Positions 13,941 to 55,790 of a stretch of 64,000 nt of DNA are shown here, piece after piece. How positions within the stretch are numbered: the first letter of the stretch is position 1; the number at the start of each line of letters is the position of its first letter. The notes under the pieces were generated by a model. It was not told the origin of the DNA and ran no database searches. It saw only the letters and a list, made by a program, of their open reading frames with translations. This DNA comes from an uncultured Hungatella sp. Lineage in GTDB: Bacteria > Bacillota > Clostridia > Lachnospirales > Lachnospiraceae. The stretch is from positions 1-64,000 of the forward strand of contig CATLBO010000003.1 of assembly GCA_949879025.1 (NCBI GenBank). Direction: 5' to 3'. The position numbers and the translations under genes were made by a program.

Positions 13941-14921
13941 TCATCGTTTTTTTGTCCTGATATCACCGCCGTACAAAGGAATAATCGAATAATGGCTGAT
14001 AATTCTCGAAGAAATCCTGTCCGAATAAGTATCCCGAAGCATGTCCATGGACAGGTTCGTGGAAATAATGGTTCCCTTCTTCCCAATCAGGCGCTCATTA
14101 ATACAGTAAAACAACTGGGACGACACAAAACTGTTGTTTAATTCTGTCCCCAGATCGTCGATAATCAGCAAATCACAATCCAGAATATACTGATACATAT
14201 CCTGCATGTCCTCTTCTGTGTCATGATAAAACTTATTCTTGGAAAAAACATCAAACAGATCACTGGATGACAGATAAATCACCGACTGATACCTGTCAAT
14301 CAGTTCCTTGGCAATACAGTTTGTAAGAAAGGTTTTGCCTACTCCCGTACTGCCTGTAAAAATCAGATTCCCTCCTTTAGCCGCAAAGCCTTCCACATAC
14401 TCTCTGCACCACCCATAGACCTGTTTCATGTAGTCAGCAACAGTCATTCCTATCTGCGGAATTACTTCCTTATTGTCATAATATTTAAAAGTAAACGAGG
14501 AAAAATTTTCCCTGCCTAAAATCTCCTGAATATTGGATTGGGAATACAAAAGAGTGATTTCTTCCTTTTTAAAGCACTGGCATTTTTTCCCCTCCATATA
14601 TCCTGTATCCTGGCATTTAGGACAATGGTAATGCATCTCCATATAGTCCGGTGCATAACCGTATGCCTCAAGAAGCACTGCCTTCTGCTCTCTCAAATCT
14701 TCAAGCTGATGTCTCAGCACCTGCCGGGCTCTGCCATCCCCGTCCAAAATCCGGCGGGCGCAGGCCACAGCCTGAGTACTTATGGTATCATCAATCTGAC
14801 GGATCTGAGGTATCCTCTCATAAACTTCCCTGACCCGTCTGTCCTGTTCATATTTATTTTGAAACTGCCGCTGATTATAAATCCGCATAATGGCATTGTA
14901 TTGGGAATTACTTAGGGACAT
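13941..14921 (-). CDS. DnaI/DnaC-like replicative helicase loader ATPase
   Basis: Zn motif CPKCQDTGYMEGKKCQC; Walker A LIFTGSTGVGKTFLTNCIAKEL; Walker B LLIIDDLGTEL. Confidence 0.88.
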   Translation of the reverse strand: MSLSNSQYNAIMRIYNQRQFQNKYEQDRRVREVYERIPQIRQIDDTISTQAVACARRILDGDGRARQVLRHQLEDLREQKAVLLEAYGYAPDYMEMHYHCPKCQDTGYMEGKKCQCFKKEEITLLYSQSNIQEILGRENFSSFTFKYYDNKEVIPQIGMTVADYMKQVYGWCREYVEGFAAKGGNLIFTGSTGVGKTFLTNCIAKELIDRYQSVIYLSSSDLFDVFSKNKFYHDTEEDMQDMYQYILDCDLLIIDDLGTELNNSFVSSQLFYCINERLIGKKGTIISTNLSMDMLRDTYSDRISSRIISHYSIIPLYGGDIRTKKR

Positions 14922-14997: not shown

Positions 14998-16212
14998 TTA
15001 CGAATCCCCAAGCCGCTCCTTCAGCCGCTCCAGTACCATAGCATCATAGTTTGTGTTGCGCTGCTCAAAATTATGGAACTGGTTTTTCGAAGGTTTCACT
15101 GGCACTCCTGCCTTATTCCCTCTTTTGCTGTCCCGCTGCTGATCCATTTTCTGTATGTCAGCCATAATCCGGACTCCGCCTTTTTTCCAGTCAGTAAGAA
15201 TCTTATCAGCATAGGAGAAGCTGGGCTTGTGAATGGCCTTCAGGGTCCTGCTGCAGGCCTCCAGGACGATCTCCTTTGTAAATCCAAACTCGCGGAACCA
15301 TTTCCGTATCATCTCCTGCTCCGAATCCCCTGGCCGTCTGTCACTGATGCCGAAAGCCCGCATCACTGCAAATCCCTCCTTCGAAAATGCAGCTGTATAC
15401 CCTTTGGCTTCGTCTACGGTTTCAATGCCTTTCTCATGCCAGTTAATAGCAACAGATTCCAGATAACGGATGCTGCTGTGTCCGTTCTGAACACAATATT
15501 CCACTAAATATTCCAAAACTTCCGCTGACATATGCAGAGCATCATAAAGATATGCAAACACCTCGCACTCCCTTGGCGTAAATATCTTGTCCATATATTT
15601 CTGCGAGATATACAGAAGCTGGGTAAAGTCCTCCTGGCCTGCCAGACGGCTTACCTGCTCCGGAGTGTACGTCTTTCGGGCCGTCAATGGCTGCTTTGCC
15701 TGAGCCGGGACAGCGTTTTCTTTTGTACCCTGAGAAGGGGGCAATTGCTGCTGTCTGGAAGCAGGCAATGCTCCCTCTCCATTTCCGCCTTCAGCGCCTG
15801 CTGTCAATGGGATTCTACCATAATTACTGTTCCCCTTTTCTTCCGGAACAGCAGTCCTGTTTAAACCGCTTCCTCTCTTGTCCGGAACCATGGATTTATC
15901 CGAAAGAAAAGATGCTCCCTGCGGCATTCCTGCTTTTTCCGGAATGTCTGCCTTTTGAAAGCCTTTTTCACCGCTTCCAAAGCCTTTTTCCTCCTCCAGC
16001 ACCCCCTGCCGCACCCAATAGCCTACGGCTCTCTTTACATCCGACTCCGTATGGTTCAGGTCATCGGCAATCTGTCCCACATCCAGCCCCCGTCCTTCAT
16101 GCCGCAGAATATACAGATATACCTTTACATATTCCCCATTCGCTCCTGCCATGTATTTGTCAATAAACTCATTGGAAACCATGGTAGCATTCAGTTTCAA
16201 GCAACTTTTCAT
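14998..16212 (-). CDS. DnaD-domain replication initiation protein
   Basis: N-terminal winged-helix-like region; repeated DnaD-like segments ECEVFAYLYDALHMSAEVLEYLVEYCVQNGHSSIRYLESVAINWHEKGI and ...KEIVLEACSRTLKAIHKPSFSYADKILTDWKKGGV; adjacent to the loader gene. Confidence 0.85.
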   Translation of the reverse strand: MKSCLKLNATMVSNEFIDKYMAGANGEYVKVYLYILRHEGRGLDVGQIADDLNHTESDVKRAVGYWVRQGVLEEEKGFGSGEKGFQKADIPEKAGMPQGASFLSDKSMVPDKRGSGLNRTAVPEEKGNSNYGRIPLTAGAEGGNGEGALPASRQQQLPPSQGTKENAVPAQAKQPLTARKTYTPEQVSRLAGQEDFTQLLYISQKYMDKIFTPRECEVFAYLYDALHMSAEVLEYLVEYCVQNGHSSIRYLESVAINWHEKGIETVDEAKGYTAAFSKEGFAVMRAFGISDRRPGDSEQEMIRKWFREFGFTKEIVLEACSRTLKAIHKPSFSYADKILTDWKKGGVRIMADIQKMDQQRDSKRGNKAGVPVKPSKNQFHNFEQRNTNYDAMVLERLKERLGDS

Positions 16213-16286
16213 ATCCGCAGTTCACCCTGTCTTTCTTCTCTTTTCCCATCATACCATATGTCTCCAAAAAAGAAAATAGCCGGAAT

Positions 16287-16483
16287 TTATCCACCATCCT
16301 ATTGTGGATAATGTGGATAATGTGGACGCCAGGTCAACATAATCTTGAAAATACTGTCGTTTCCTGTCGAAACTCCCGTAAATAACGGATTTCCAAATTG
16401 GCTGACGATTTATTATGTAAATTAAAAAATCCACAGTAGTTTTCGACGGAAAATGTTGAAAACTCTGTGGATAATGTGGATAA
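16287..16483. promoter_or_regulatory. DnaA-box cluster upstream of dnaD/helicase-loader genes
   Basis: Exact TGTGGATAA (reverse complement of TTATCCACA) at 16303-16311, 16312-16320, 16466-16474, 16475-16483; near-matches TTATCCACC 16287-16295, AAATCCACA 16427-16435, TGTGGACGC 16321-16329. Confidence 0.8.
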
Positions 16484-16484
16484 C

Positions 16485-17873
16485 TCACTTCCCAAGAAGG
16501 TTTTCCCCCACTTTTACGATATCTCCGGCCCCCATAGTTATCAACAGATCACCCTTGACACAATTTTCTAAAATAAATGTCTCGATTTCATCAAACGATG
16601 AAAAATAGTGGGCCTTTGTACCCAAAGCCTCTATTTTTGCGGCGATATCCCCAGAACTGATGCCCAAATCATCGGTTTCCCTGGCTGCATAAATATCTGC
16701 CAATACCACCTCGTCCGCTTCCGCCAGGCTCCTGGCAAACTCATCAAGAAATGCTTTTGTCCTGGTATACGTGTGGGGCTGGAACACGCACCACAGCTTT
16801 TTATGCGGATAATTCTTTGCCGCTGCCAGAGTAGCCGCTATCTCCCTTGGATGGTGCGCATAATCATCAATAATGGTAACCCCGCAGATCTCTCCCTTTT
16901 TCTCAAATCTGCGATCCGTTCCCGCAAAATCCGCCAGACCTTTCTTAATATGTTCCAAGCTGACCCCCAGTTCCCGGCAAAGCGCAATAGCTGCCAGCGC
17001 ATTGAAAACATTATGCTCCCCTGGCACTCCTAAAGTAATCCTCTCTGCTTTCTCGCCGTGAATCAGCAGGTCAAAAGTATCCCTGGAATACTCATCATAC
17101 GTAATATGCCCTGCGCTGTAATCGCTGCCCTGATTCTTCCCCACTGTTACAATGCGGCATTTCAGCCCTTCTGTAATCTGCTGATACATGTCAATATCAC
17201 TGTTAATAATCAGCACGCCGTCTTTTGGCAGCTTCTCTGCAAACTTCCGGAATGAACTGCGGATATGGTTAATATCCTTAAAATAGTCCAAGTGATCCTC
17301 CTCAATATTCAGAATCACTGCCATATTAGGGAAAAAGGACAAAAAGCTGTCTGTATACTCGCAGGCCTCTGTAACAAAAATGTCAGATCCGCCTACCCGG
17401 ATATTGCCTCCAATAGAATGAAGAATCCCTCCAACCGATATGGTTGGGTCCTTGTCTGCAGCCAAAAGAATATCCGCCGCCATGGATGTGGTAGTGGTCT
17501 TCCCGTGAGTTCCTGCAATTGCTGCCGCATATCTGTAGTTCTTCATCATCTGTCCCAAAAGCTGGGCTCGGCTCAGCATAGGAATGCCTGCCTCCTTAAC
17601 TGCCTGATACTCAGGATTATCTGAATGTACAGCCGCCGTATAGACAGCCACGCAGATCCTCCTGCCCAGTTCCTCAATATTGGATGCCTGCTGCCCATAA
17701 AAAATTTGGGCCCCTTTTGCCTTCAAATGTTCTGTCAGTTCTGATTTATGAGAATCTGAACCGGATACTTGGAAGCCCTCTTCCATGAGAACCTCCGCCA
17801 GGCCGCTCATGCTGATGCCCCCGATTCCAATAAAATGTACATGCTCCGGTTTTTGAAAATCTATCTGATACAT
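16485..17873 (-). CDS. murC: UDP-N-acetylmuramate--L-alanine ligase
   Basis: VHFIGIGGISMSGLAEVL, AIAGTHGKTTTTSM, DDYAHHPREIAATL. Confidence 0.95.
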   Translation of the reverse strand: MYQIDFQKPEHVHFIGIGGISMSGLAEVLMEEGFQVSGSDSHKSELTEHLKAKGAQIFYGQQASNIEELGRRICVAVYTAAVHSDNPEYQAVKEAGIPMLSRAQLLGQMMKNYRYAAAIAGTHGKTTTTSMAADILLAADKDPTISVGGILHSIGGNIRVGGSDIFVTEACEYTDSFLSFFPNMAVILNIEEDHLDYFKDINHIRSSFRKFAEKLPKDGVLIINSDIDMYQQITEGLKCRIVTVGKNQGSDYSAGHITYDEYSRDTFDLLIHGEKAERITLGVPGEHNVFNALAAIALCRELGVSLEHIKKGLADFAGTDRRFEKKGEICGVTIIDDYAHHPREIAATLAAAKNYPHKKLWCVFQPHTYTRTKAFLDEFARSLAEADEVVLADIYAARETDDLGISSGDIAAKIEALGTKAHYFSSFDEIETFILENCVKGDLLITMGAGDIVKVGENLLGK

Positions 17874-19902: not shown

Positions 19903-20072
19903 GAAATAATTCTCCCCTTTCCCAGTTAAATCCTGTTATTATTTTAATCTTATCGCATACAGAAAAATGATTCAAGTTTTTTGCTCTTTTTTTACAAAAT
20001 TTTTCAATTTATATGCCATTTTTACATATTTTGTTTTATAATAAAATCATCAATAAGAAAGGATTCTTTGAC

Positions 20073-23000
20073 ATGAATTTTATTAAAAAATTCGTCCGAT
20101 TTATTTTTGGTGTCATTTTCAGTATACTGGGAGCTGTCGGATGGCTGCTGCAGACCCTGCTCCAGGTGGTTACCGTACTTCTCATCCTTTGTCTTATAGC
20201 AGGATGTGCAGTCTTTATGAAAGTAAAGCCGCATCTGGAACGCAGCAGGGCAGTGGCGTATGACACCCTGGCCCAGATGGAACGAGAGGATTTCAGCATG
20301 CTTTCCGATACGGAAATCTTTGACAAAAATGGAAAGCGCATCGGCATCATCAATGCAGGCCACTATGAGTATGCGGACATCTCCCGTATCAGCCTGAACC
20401 TTCAAAATGCCTACATAGCCCAGGAAGACCGGCGCTTCAAAACCCACAGCGGCGTTGACTGGATTGCCACTACCCGGGCCGCTTTGGCTCTTGTCAAGCA
20501 CCGCGGCACCATTACTCAGGGCGGAAGCACCATTACCCAGCAGATTATTAAAAATACCTATCTTACTCAGGAAAAGACTTTTACCCGGAAAATGGTGGAA
20601 ATCCTTCTGGCCCCGGAGATTGAAAAGACCTATTCAAAAGCCGACATTATGGAATTCTACTGCAATACCAACTTTTACGGCCATCAATGTTACGGCGTCC
20701 AGGCAGCCAGCCGTTACTATTTCGGAAAAGATGCTTCGGATTTGGAGGTTTATGAAGCAGCTGTCCTGGTGGGGATTAGCAACAGCCCTTCCGCCTATGA
20801 TCCGGTTCTTCATCCAGACGCTGCTTTAAAAAAGCGTAATGAAGTGCTGAAAAGTATGTTGGAAGTGGACATGCTTACTCAGGAAGAATATGAGAAAGCT
20901 GTTTCCCAGTCTCTTTGTATTATCCAGGAGCAGCAGGAAGGAACCGACGACAGTTATCTCACCAGTTATGCCATTCACTGTGCCGCTTTGGAGCTGATGA
21001 AACAGGATGACTTTGAATTCCGCTATACCTTTTCGGACAAGCCTGATTATGATTCTTATATGGAGAAATACACTGCTGTCTATAACGAAAAAAATGACTC
21101 CATTCGAAACGGCGGATACAAAATCTACACATCTCTGGATCAAGATATTCAGAATATGCTTCAAACCAGCCTGGATGAGGTTCTTTCTTCCTACACCGAA
21201 CTGCAGGATAACGGCAAATACGCCCTTCAGGGAGCTGCCGTTATTGTTGACAACCAGTCTAATTATGTAGTGGCCATTGTTGGTGGAAGGGGAACAGAAG
21301 ATCAATTTAACCGGGCATATTTAAGCGCCAGACAGCCAGGCAGCACCATTAAGCCTCTGCTTGACTACGGTCCCGCCTTTGATACGGGAGAATACTATCC
21401 CTCCCGCATTGTGGATGACCACCAATGGGAAGACGGCCCTGCCAACAGCGGCGGCCACTATTACGGGCCTGTTACTGTTCGGGAAGCATTAAACCGCAGC
21501 CTTAACACTGTGGCATGGCAGGTGCTTGAAGATATCGGCATTGATACTGGTTTAAGTTATCTGGATAATATGCATTTCCAGAGATTGACCTATGTGGATA
21601 ACGGCGTTCCTTCTCTAAGCATCGGAGGATTTACCAACGGAGTCCGCATTGTGGATATGGCAAAGGGATTCAGCACTCTGGCCAACAACGGGGTTTACAA
21701 TGACAGAACCTGTATTCTGAAGATTGAACACGAGCAGGAAGGCGATCTTACGGCCCGCACCTATGCCGTCACAAAACAGGTTTACAGCATTGACACCGCC
21801 TTTATGCTTACAGATATTTTAAAAGGAACCATTTCCTCTCCTTACGGAACCGGAAGAGCTCTGAAGCTTTCTGTCGATATGCCTGTAGCCGGAAAGACAG
21901 GAACCACCAACAGCAGCAAAGACACCTGGTTCTGTGGGTATTCCCGCTACTATACTGGCGCTGTCTGGGTGGGCTACGATACCCCCCGGGCCATGCCAGG
22001 CATTTTCGGCAGCACCTATGCAGGGGTTATTTGGAAGAATGTAATGAACCAGCTTCATGAGGGGCTGGAACCATGGGATTGGGAACAGCCGGAAACCGTT
22101 GTAAAAGATTCCTATGACCCGGTTACCGGGGCACGGCTTCATCCTACGTATGCGGCTGCATCCCAGGAAGATTCCTCCCAAAAGCCAATATCCCCTGCAT
22201 CGGCTGCACCGGCCGTTTCTCAGCCGTCTCAGCCAGCTGAGACGGCCCCAGCTGAGACGGCACTGCCAGAAACTTCTCCCGCCGAAACAGTTCCGGCCCA
22301 GACAGCCCCCCATCCCATCGGCCCCGGCTATGCTCCCATTGTCTCCGAAACTCAAGCCTCCGAAAGTGCCTCGGAGATTTTGGTCATACCGGAAACGCCG
22401 CCTTGGGCTTCGGCAGATAACAATACCTTGTTCCTGCAAGGTTCCTCCTTGCCTGGTTCTGGCGAGGCTATATACTATATGACTTCCATGAAGGGCCCTG
22501 GAGCCAATCCCAGCAATCCCAAAAAGTCTGACAGTGAAACCAATGCAGGCACGGTTCCTCCCAGGCCAGGCCCTGGCACGGTGCCGGCTGCCCAGCCCCC
22601 ATCTGAGGAAGAAATCCAGAGCCAGCCGGAAACTTCTTCAGAAAGCACGGAAACCGCCGCTCCCCCGGCCCAGGCGGCATCTGCCTCCCTGCCGCCGGAT
22701 GTTCCATATAAAGAACCGGCTGCCCAGGCAGGCACCAGTCTGGTGGATTATTTCAGCAACAGTTCCGAGCTGCGGGCACGCCAGCATCTTACGGACAAAG
22801 CCCAAAACAAGCTGGTATCAGAACTAGACGGACTCATCACTGCATTTGAGAATGAAACGATCAACTCTGCTGCTGATGTCTATACCATTCGGGATGACTA
22901 TAAAAATATTTCTTTAAAGTTAAAGCAGGTTCAGGACGGAGAAGATCGGAGGGTTCTTTATGACCGATGTGAAAAACGCTGGCTGGAGTTTTCCTCCATT

Positions 23001-23450
23001 ATTGATACCATGGGAGAGTCCATTCGAATCTATGAAGAAAAGCAGGAATTAATGGAAAAGCAGGAGCTTAAAAAAGCAGAAGAACAGGCGGCCCTTGACA
23101 GGAAAAACCAGGAGATTCAGGATCGGATCACTTCTTTTGAAACTGCCCTGCAGATATTGGAAGATATGAAATATCAGTCTTCCGACGCTGAAGCTTTGGC
23201 CAATGCCGCCATAGCCAAACTAGGGGAACTGTATGGCTATGCAGATACAGAAAGTTACCGCATGCGGCTAGACGCCGCTATCCGCCGCATCCGTTCCCTT
23301 CCTACTGAGGCTCAGTGGAATGCGCAGGAAGCCCAGAAACAGGCAGATGCTATGGCTCAGGGGGCGAAAGAACAGCAGGCTCTTTACCAAACGCTTACGG
23401 CAGAGAAACGTTACTGGAATATACCATCTTATGGACCCGGGAGGAATTGA
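20073..23450 (+). CDS. Class A penicillin-binding protein (PBP1A-type) with long C-terminal disordered and coiled-coil extension
   Basis: Transglycosylase EDRRFKTHSGVDW...GGSTITQQIIKN; transpeptidase SARQPGSTIKPL, SLN, AGKTGTTNSSKDTWFCGY. Start placed at MNFIKKFVRF (20073), with AAAGGA upstream. Confidence 0.93.
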   Translation: MNFIKKFVRFIFGVIFSILGAVGWLLQTLLQVVTVLLILCLIAGCAVFMKVKPHLERSRAVAYDTLAQMEREDFSMLSDTEIFDKNGKRIGIINAGHYEYADISRISLNLQNAYIAQEDRRFKTHSGVDWIATTRAALALVKHRGTITQGGSTITQQIIKNTYLTQEKTFTRKMVEILLAPEIEKTYSKADIMEFYCNTNFYGHQCYGVQAASRYYFGKDASDLEVYEAAVLVGISNSPSAYDPVLHPDAALKKRNEVLKSMLEVDMLTQEEYEKAVSQSLCIIQEQQEGTDDSYLTSYAIHCAALELMKQDDFEFRYTFSDKPDYDSYMEKYTAVYNEKNDSIRNGGYKIYTSLDQDIQNMLQTSLDEVLSSYTELQDNGKYALQGAAVIVDNQSNYVVAIVGGRGTEDQFNRAYLSARQPGSTIKPLLDYGPAFDTGEYYPSRIVDDHQWEDGPANSGGHYYGPVTVREALNRSLNTVAWQVLEDIGIDTGLSYLDNMHFQRLTYVDNGVPSLSIGGFTNGVRIVDMAKGFSTLANNGVYNDRTCILKIEHEQEGDLTARTYAVTKQVYSIDTAFMLTDILKGTISSPYGTGRALKLSVDMPVAGKTGTTNSSKDTWFCGYSRYYTGAVWVGYDTPRAMPGIFGSTYAGVIWKNVMNQLHEGLEPWDWEQPETVVKDSYDPVTGARLHPTYAAASQEDSSQKPISPASAAPAVSQPSQPAETAPAETALPETSPAETVPAQTAPHPIGPGYAPIVSETQASESASEILVIPETPPWASADNNTLFLQGSSLPGSGEAIYYMTSMKGPGANPSNPKKSDSETNAGTVPPRPGPGTVPAAQPPSEEEIQSQPETSSESTETAAPPAQAASASLPPDVPYKEPAAQAGTSLVDYFSNSSELRARQHLTDKAQNKLVSELDGLITAFENETINSAADVYTIRDDYKNISLKLKQVQDGEDRRVLYDRCEKRWLEFSSIIDTMGESIRIYEEKQELMEKQELKKAEEQAALDRKNQEIQDRITSFETALQILEDMKYQSSDAEALANAAIAKLGELYGYADTESYRMRLDAAIRRIRSLPTEAQWNAQEAQKQADAMAQGAKEQQALYQTLTAEKRYWNIPSYGPGRN

Positions 23451-53844: not shown

Positions 53845-55790
53845 TATGCCTTCTCCCCTGATGCTTCCAAATCATATCCGTCCTTTTTGCCTGCAAGGTT
53901 TTCCACAATCGGAAGGGCAAAAAACAAATGTTTTCCACAGGCCCTTCCGCAAATATCCACACGATATGCGCATTTTTTTATATAAAATCCCGGTTCCTGC
54001 CACCTGATATTCATCTGTATCAGATCCAGCATCCTCAGATGTTTTGCCTGCAAATCTTCTTTCAAGAGAAGCAGCTTTAAATACTGCTCATAAGAAAACC
54101 CTCTTTCTTCACTTATCTGCTGACCTGTTGGTGTGTTCATATCTGGCATTTGTCCCCTTCCCATGCTGAGAATATTGTCCAATTCAGTATTCCAGTCTCC
54201 CTTTTGCTTCCACAAGGGCACTTTTCCTCCAGCCATAAGAATCCGCAGATCCTGAATCGACTCTCCCAGCGCCCAAATACCCATGATTATGCATGCCGTA
54301 ATTTCCACCAATGGCGTCAGGCCTGCTGCTCCTGTAATTATAAGAGCCAGCGCCTTTGCCTCGTTCCTTTTTTGGGCATCAGACAAAATATGAATCAGAT
54401 TCATGCCTTCCCGGACTGCTAATAATTCTGTCAAGGTTTTTTCCAGGTTCTCTCTGTCTTCTAAAGCCCCATGAAGAAGATACTCCAGTTCATATTGAAT
54501 CGGGTGGCTGACTGTACTCAATGCATTTGTAAAGTAATAACCGCAATATTCATTTATCAAAACCTGCTCCGGCAGAGTGCTTCCCTTTGTGCTGCCTGAT
54601 TTATCTGTCTCTTTAGCAGATATGCATTGGGACGGCATATCCTCTGCCGTAAAAGTCCCTGAAGAGATTATGGTTCCTTCAGGCATAACAAGCTCCAGCA
54701 AGCCGCCTTCTGTCAGTCTCTTTACCTGTTCCAGAAGATTTTGCTTTTCTCTGTCCCCAGAAGATGCCTTTAATGTAACCCTACTCTTTATATACTGGTT
54801 TTTCCAAAGGGCAGCCGCTGCTTTCAGGGATTCTTCTGTTTCCTTTGCAGAATCTTCCTCACTGCCGTTTTCTTTTCCTGTATAGCCTTCGTCTTCCTGA
54901 ACCAGCATTTCTGTCTCTTCTAAAAGCATCAAATTACTCTTTGCCACATCCTCCCATAAGGCAAATTCCTTTCTTCTGTCCCCATCTTGTGCAATGTAAT
55001 CATCATAAGGATTCCACCTCTGCCTAAACAGCGCTTCTCTGTTTTCCTGCAGATCCTCCTGTACTTCATCAATTTTTTCCATGGCCTGCTGCTGACTGTC
55101 CGCTAATGCCAGGGCCTGTTTCTCATACTTCCTCATCAGTCCCGCATACTTTTCTGCTGCCCGCCGGAAACCTTTGGCTGCCTTGAAAAATTCCTGTCCG
55201 TCCTCCTGCTCCAGTGCTTCTTCTATCTCCTGTCCCATGCGTTCCTGCTCCTGCATATTCTCAATAAGCTTCTCCGCAGCCTGTTCCAGCTTCTGCATTT
55301 GCCGCCCCTGATCATCATAAATCTTTGACAGTTCATGAACGCTTCCTCCTTCTGTCACATCCTTTAAGAAACGTTCCCCTTCCTCTGGTTTCACAAACAT
55401 TCCCACCGCTGCACCGGCTTTCATAAACTCCAGCACTTCTTCCGCCAGATAACTGCCCTGGTCATCAGCAATGCCAATCAGCTGCGTCACATCCACTGAT
55501 TCCAATTTTGCAGGATACCAGTTATTTACAGACAAATACTCATTTATGTAACCTTCCAAATCCCGGATGATCTCTTCTTCAGTACCATATTCCAAGGCGA
55601 ATATTCGGTACTCCTCCCAGAGACGGCGGTGATAACGGCTGAACAGCGTATCTAGCCCGCTGCCTGCTGCCACCTGGAAATAGTACCTGGAACCGGCTGT
55701 TCTCGCCGATTCCAGCATAACGCAAAGAAGTGCCCATACACATAATGTACACATGCTTAAGAATACGGTTATTTCTCCGCTTCTTTTCAT
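53841..55790 (-). CDS. DUF5702-like Tad-locus surface protein
   Basis: N-terminal RSGEITVFLSMCTLCVWALLCVMLESART; long coiled ectodomain, C-terminal hydrophobic region. ATG at 55790; ORF track used an upstream TTG. Confidence 0.72.
   Translation of the reverse strand: MKRSGEITVFLSMCTLCVWALLCVMLESARTAGSRYYFQVAAGSGLDTLFSRYHRRLWEEYRIFALEYGTEEEIIRDLEGYINEYLSVNNWYPAKLESVDVTQLIGIADDQGSYLAEEVLEFMKAGAAVGMFVKPEEGERFLKDVTEGGSVHELSKIYDDQGRQMQKLEQAAEKLIENMQEQERMGQEIEEALEQEDGQEFFKAAKGFRRAAEKYAGLMRKYEKQALALADSQQQAMEKIDEVQEDLQENREALFRQRWNPYDDYIAQDGDRRKEFALWEDVAKSNLMLLEETEMLVQEDEGYTGKENGSEEDSAKETEESLKAAAALWKNQYIKSRVTLKASSGDREKQNLLEQVKRLTEGGLLELVMPEGTIISSGTFTAEDMPSQCISAKETDKSGSTKGSTLPEQVLINEYCGYYFTNALSTVSHPIQYELEYLLHGALEDRENLEKTLTELLAVREGMNLIHILSDAQKRNEAKALALIITGAAGLTPLVEITACIIMGIWALGESIQDLRILMAGGKVPLWKQKGDWNTELDNILSMGRGQMPDMNTPTGQQISEERGFSYEQYLKLLLLKEDLQAKHLRMLDLIQMNIRWQEPGFYIKKCAYRVDICGRACGKHLFFALPIVENLAGKKDGYDLEASGEKAY

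Follow-up and report, generated by a model that had tools for sequence, protein, structure and literature searches.

The 272-bp gap between the end of murC (position 16485) and the start of a dnaD-like gene (16212) can be read, with a probability of about 0.75, as the region through which DnaA controls the helicase-loader operon dnaD-dnaI. Such control had been proposed in an earlier note on the same DNA, and at the level of sequence comparison the proposal is strongly supported by family-wide conservation of the DnaA boxes and by the fixed, helix-phased spacing of one box array (array 2) from the dnaD promoter. If the reading is correct, regulation of the helicase loader by DnaA would join two key parts of replication initiation in the Lachnospiraceae, a dominant gut family whose replication control has been little studied. 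The features of the region are listed in Table 1.

Table 1. Features in and around the murC-dnaD gap (positions are those of the window)
Feature	Position	Strand	Remarks
murC	16485..17873	-	Mur ligase domains PF01225, PF08245, PF02875; read into the gap
Array 1	16466..16483	-	Two exact head-to-tail DnaA boxes; starts one base past the murC stop
murC intrinsic terminator	16424..16472	-	Hairpin 16429-16472 followed by a T-tract; second box of array 1 serves as 5' arm
TTTACATAA element	16413..16421	-	Just past the murC terminator; 46/130 genomes vs 1.2 expected; mostly 60-80 bp after the murC stop
Spo0A-box-like tandem heptamers	16355..16371	-	TTCGACA / AACGACA, 10 bp apart; between the arrays; candidate sites
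Array 2	16303..16329	-	Two exact boxes (16303-16320) and one degenerate unit (16321-16329); array end and -10 are 49 bp apart; relatives have 2-3 units in tandem
Inverted DnaA box TTATCCACC	16287..16295	+	1 mismatch; exact in several relatives (G172, G269, G048, G283)
Extended -10 of the presumed dnaD promoter (TGGTATGAT)	16248..16256	-	Conserved; consensus TGCTATAAT
dnaD-like gene	14998..16212	-	PF07261, E 1.6e-37; read out of the gap
DnaI/DnaC-like AAA+ helicase loader	13941..14921	-	PF01695, PF00308; 76 bp after dnaD; read out of the gap

The window, the whole 64-kb stretch of DNA that was analysed, comes from an assembly of 3.79 Mb in 255 contigs that is 82.8% complete, and its closest named relatives are Hungatella and Lachnospiraceae genomes. 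Pfam domains and strands confirmed the gene frame given earlier, with the dnaD-like and loader genes transcribed away from the gap. Four exact DnaA boxes (TTATCCACA) were found in the gap, all on the minus strand (16303-16311, 16312-16320, 16466-16474 and 16475-16483), forming the two spacer-free head-to-tail 9-bp pairs that had been described. A fifth exact box of the window lies at 21593; 0.47 would be expected in 64 kb, and none of 100 shuffles reached 5. The complete assembly contains 94 exact boxes compared with 15 matches to the reversed pattern. The genome-wide box scan called for in the earlier note placed the densest exact-box cluster of the assembly, among the matches listed, in the murC-dnaD gap, and among the places listed four exact boxes within 200 bp occurred nowhere else in the assembly. 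Three degenerate copies had also been reported. Two of these stand, namely the inverted box at 16287-16295 and GCGTCCACA at 16321-16329, which has three mismatches and is in tandem register with the exact pair at 16303-16320, but the third (TGTGGATTT, approximately 16427-16435) proved to be the 3' arm of the terminator hairpin. The AT-rich stretch between the pairs is likewise present but is mostly the terminator T-tract plus the conserved TTTACATAA.

Whether the boxes upstream of dnaD are kept in related genomes, a check suggested earlier, was examined in 130 Lachnospiraceae genomes that were anchored on murC and so not chosen by their boxes. Nearly all are from different genera, although the sampled genera are not independent and, as the sample consists of the higher-scoring murC matches, the most distant genera are under-represented. 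The dnaD gene follows murC on the same strand in 128 of these genomes. In an interval that opens 10 nt ahead of the end of the murC stop and closes 450 nt beyond it, at least one exact DnaA box was present in 112/130 genomes and at least two in 96, giving 302 exact boxes versus 2 for the reversed-pattern controls, with 284 boxes oriented with dnaD and 18 against. When up to two mismatches per unit were allowed, 8 genomes were left without any box unit. The tandem 9-bp register is maintained in both arrays across relatives, and of 299 family genomes, 166 contain the 18-mer TTATCCACATTATCCACA and none contains its reversed control. In a sample of 47 dnaD loci from further Clostridia families, two of these families being in the same order, the cluster was not seen. 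Because most of the family genomes have boxes and these 47 loci lack the cluster, the box arrangement is typical of Lachnospiraceae. Several genomes without recognisable boxes, and the absence of dnaA from the window's assembly (82.8% complete, 255 contigs), count against the main reading.

Array 2 is in helical phase with the dnaD promoter. It comprises two or three units upstream of a conserved extended -10, TGnTATAAT, whose consensus was present in 45/130 genomes (0.4 expected). In the 78 genomes where array 2 and the -10 could both be placed, the distance from the end of the array to the -10 hexamer was 49 bp (19 genomes), 58-59 bp (7), 67-71 bp (36) or 78-81 bp (10), with a few others. 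This spacing exhibited a 10-bp periodicity (Rayleigh R = 0.82, where the 0.001 level is about 0.30) that persisted when the set was thinned by spacer identity to 21 genomes (R = 0.83 vs 0.57), and 9-bp unit slippage may account for part of the steps. In the 37 genomes at 66-71 bp, the distance to the promoter had an SD of only 1.1 bp, while the same arrays ended 87-195 bp from the murC stop (SD 31 bp); the distance from the murC stop to array 2 is weakly phased. A compact clade that has lost the separate second array retains a box mostly 52 bp from the same -10. The region thus exhibits two features of DnaA-regulated promoters, consensus boxes near a promoter beyond chance and a box position that is fixed relative to promoter elements across relatives. 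Helical phasing between the two arrays was also considered, the raw spacings of 154, 164 and 174 having looked periodic, and was rejected as 9-bp unit slippage explains much of the pattern.

Array 2 does not overlap the -10; its end is some 61 or 81 bp upstream of where transcription presumably starts, which for bacterial promoters in general is an activator-like position. No TTGACA-like -35 was found at the dnaD promoter; a conserved CTATTTnnTTTT tract, not overlapped by array 2, is in its place. An AAACCC...GGGTTT palindrome, possibly a further operator, separates array 2 from the promoter in some of the genera with a 69-70 bp spacer (G031, G200, G193 and G235). As a general feature, however, a palindrome located between array 2 and the -35 was rejected (15/94 compared with 3.6 in shuffles).

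Array 1 usually has two units and begins 0 to 3 nt past the murC stop in most of the 130 genomes. Its second unit forms the 5' arm of the murC terminator, whose 3' arm reads TGTGGA followed by T's; in the window this terminator folds at -24.7 kcal/mol (z -6.45). A DnaA box is paired as an arm of the terminator stem in 80 of 110 genomes, and the inner stem differs among genera with the pairing maintained. The first unit of array 1 lies outside the stem and is nonetheless conserved; therefore, termination alone is not the explanation for that unit. A consensus scan of the window called neither the dnaD promoter nor the murC terminator, since the promoter has no -35 match and the bulge and loop of the hairpin are beyond the limits of the scan, and both calls rest on folding and conservation.

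We infer that DnaA occupies these boxes, whose conservation, orientation, overlap with the terminator and phase with the promoter are observed directly. Most likely, DnaA would bind cooperatively to the head-to-tail units of array 2, at a constant helical phase relative to RNA polymerase. From this site, some 60 or 80 bp ahead of the transcription start, it would raise transcription of dnaD-dnaI from a promoter that has an extended -10 and no consensus -35. DnaA availability would then set the supply of helicase loader, in a feed-forward arrangement from initiator to loader. On the terminator-embedded array 1, DnaA may reinforce termination or interact with array 2. As to the sign of the effect, DnaA probably activates rather than represses (about 60:40). 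DnaA roadblocks to RNA polymerase have been described (PMC11317965), and array 1 may add one at the murC terminator. A more speculative, rather doubtful extension is that of a dual switch, in which DnaA on array 2 would activate loader synthesis, DnaA on array 1 would act as a directional roadblock sealing murC from dnaD, and the initiator level alone would set helicase-loading capacity across the family.

The main rival to activation is repression by a filament or loop, which we regard as possible but the less probable sign. Here, arrays 1 and 2 and the inverted box near the promoter would nucleate the structure, and abundant DnaA would shut the promoter, creating negative feedback on loader supply. 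The spacer is indeed flanked by two arrays, the window's clade has the inverted box near its promoter, and most of the B. subtilis DnaA targets named in PMC4447404 are repressed. However, array 2 overlaps neither the -35 nor the -10, and the compact clade manages without a separate second array.

It is unlikely that the cluster lies at dnaD by chance and is chiefly a site for DnaA titration or inactivation, of the kind represented by E. coli datA and by the clusters of B. subtilis. The earlier note had raised titration, and the proposal holds to the extent that there are several exact boxes in what is a high-affinity cluster outside oriC, as at datA-like sites. In most genomes with both on one contig the cluster is 98-669 kb from dnaA (the exception, G178, at about 1 Mb, is also without the usual array), and such clusters delay initiation in B. 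subtilis (PMC13220808). As a main role, however, titration does not explain the promoter-phased spacing or the single orientation relative to dnaD. By GC skew, 10/12 relatives have murC-dnaD head-on to replication, while the window and the two remaining relatives have it co-directional, and in either case the boxes point the same way relative to dnaD; the cluster therefore follows the gene and not the fork. Together with the absence of a skew flip at the site, this speaks against the cluster being an origin or mainly a titration site, and titration may occur as a side effect or by-product. The 12 relatives have closed or nearly closed genomes, and a head-on murC-dnaD-dnaI in 10 of them is unusual for probably essential genes.

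We consider it very improbable that the repeats are not DnaA sites, with array 1 being terminator sequence and array 2 binding another regulator of dnaD. The second box of array 1 does form a stem arm of the murC terminator, but the first unit and the entire array 2 are conserved outside the stem, and the 9-mer matches the DnaA consensus exactly and is also present at dnaA in these Lachnospiraceae genomes. A replication origin, whether secondary (as suggested earlier) or former, would fit DnaA boxes accompanied by an AT-rich stretch but was rejected: the mapping of GC skew and dnaA that had been recommended revealed no sign change at the site in 13/13 cases (12 relatives plus the window itself), most of the AT-rich stretch belongs to the terminator, and the neighbours are murC and dnaD rather than dnaA or dnaN, with dnaA at least 98 kb away in relatives and provided with its own boxes.

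That DnaA is a transcription factor is already known; new here are the target operon, the zero-spaced promoter-phased arrays, the way they are fused with the murC terminator, and conservation throughout the family. DnaA acts as such at sda, which it activates, and at other B. subtilis genes (PMC4447404). The sda type of promoter resembles the present one in having box clusters upstream, but here the target is the helicase-loader operon and the tandem units, spaced by 0 bp, are phased to an extended -10; the passages of this paper that treat high-affinity B. subtilis DnaA regions name neither dnaD nor dnaI. The DnaA regulon of Caulobacter includes dnaB and dnaQ (PMC8203912), again with DnaA boxes in front of a gene for the helicase step of replication, although that gene encodes the helicase rather than its loader and both phylum and box layout differ. 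The B. subtilis clusters of Okumura et al. 2012, as cited in PMC13220808, are also non-oriC and often near oriC; they sequester DnaA and affect initiation timing, whereas the Lachnospiraceae cluster is promoter phased. The double boxes of E. coli (PMC11317965) are similar in that DnaA binds paired boxes at regulated genes, but they are spaced by 2-3 bp, as opposed to 0 bp here (a 9-bp repeat), often with three units and with one pair in a terminator. In Staphylococcus aureus a WalR ChIP peak was found upstream of dnaD, and regulation was not detected (PMC10746227). DnaA boxes at dnaD in Lachnospiraceae were not described in any paper found by a literature search that had most subscription papers outside its reach.

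Between the arrays, TTCGACA was found in 30/130 genomes, almost only on the dnaD strand, compared with about 0.01 per genome expected from coding sequence. A Spo0A_C domain was present in 29/30 genomes with the heptamer and in 43/50 without it, a weak link, and the heptamers are suggestive only of a Spo0A input at the gap.

Further groups of DnaA boxes were observed elsewhere. In the window, one exact and three one-mismatch boxes lie within 250 bp (21410-21658) inside a large penicillin-binding-protein-like gene (20013-23450), and three one-mismatch boxes (TTTTCCACA twice and ATATCCACA) lie within 63 bp at 53899-53961. Elsewhere in the window's genome, 3 exact and about 5 one-mismatch boxes were located inside a putative RluA-like coding sequence, assigned from sequence (L009, G000:C4:2518-2828). 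Its four closest homologues (L320-L323, in G019, G046, G048 and G059; 57-62% identity) have 2-3 exact boxes and 5-10 with at most one mismatch, for the most part at corresponding positions, whereas boxes are few in most of the remaining homologues; this cluster may serve to titrate DnaA. Upstream of hpf, which encodes a ribosome hibernation factor and often precedes secA, a second conserved non-oriC cluster was observed (L257-L286, L050, L061 and L064); hpf itself was not found in the window's assembly, which is 82.8% complete. The layout is often one box, about 53 bp and then a tandem pair, and an exact box was present upstream of hpf in 19/30 genomes and a tandem in 12, with none for the control.
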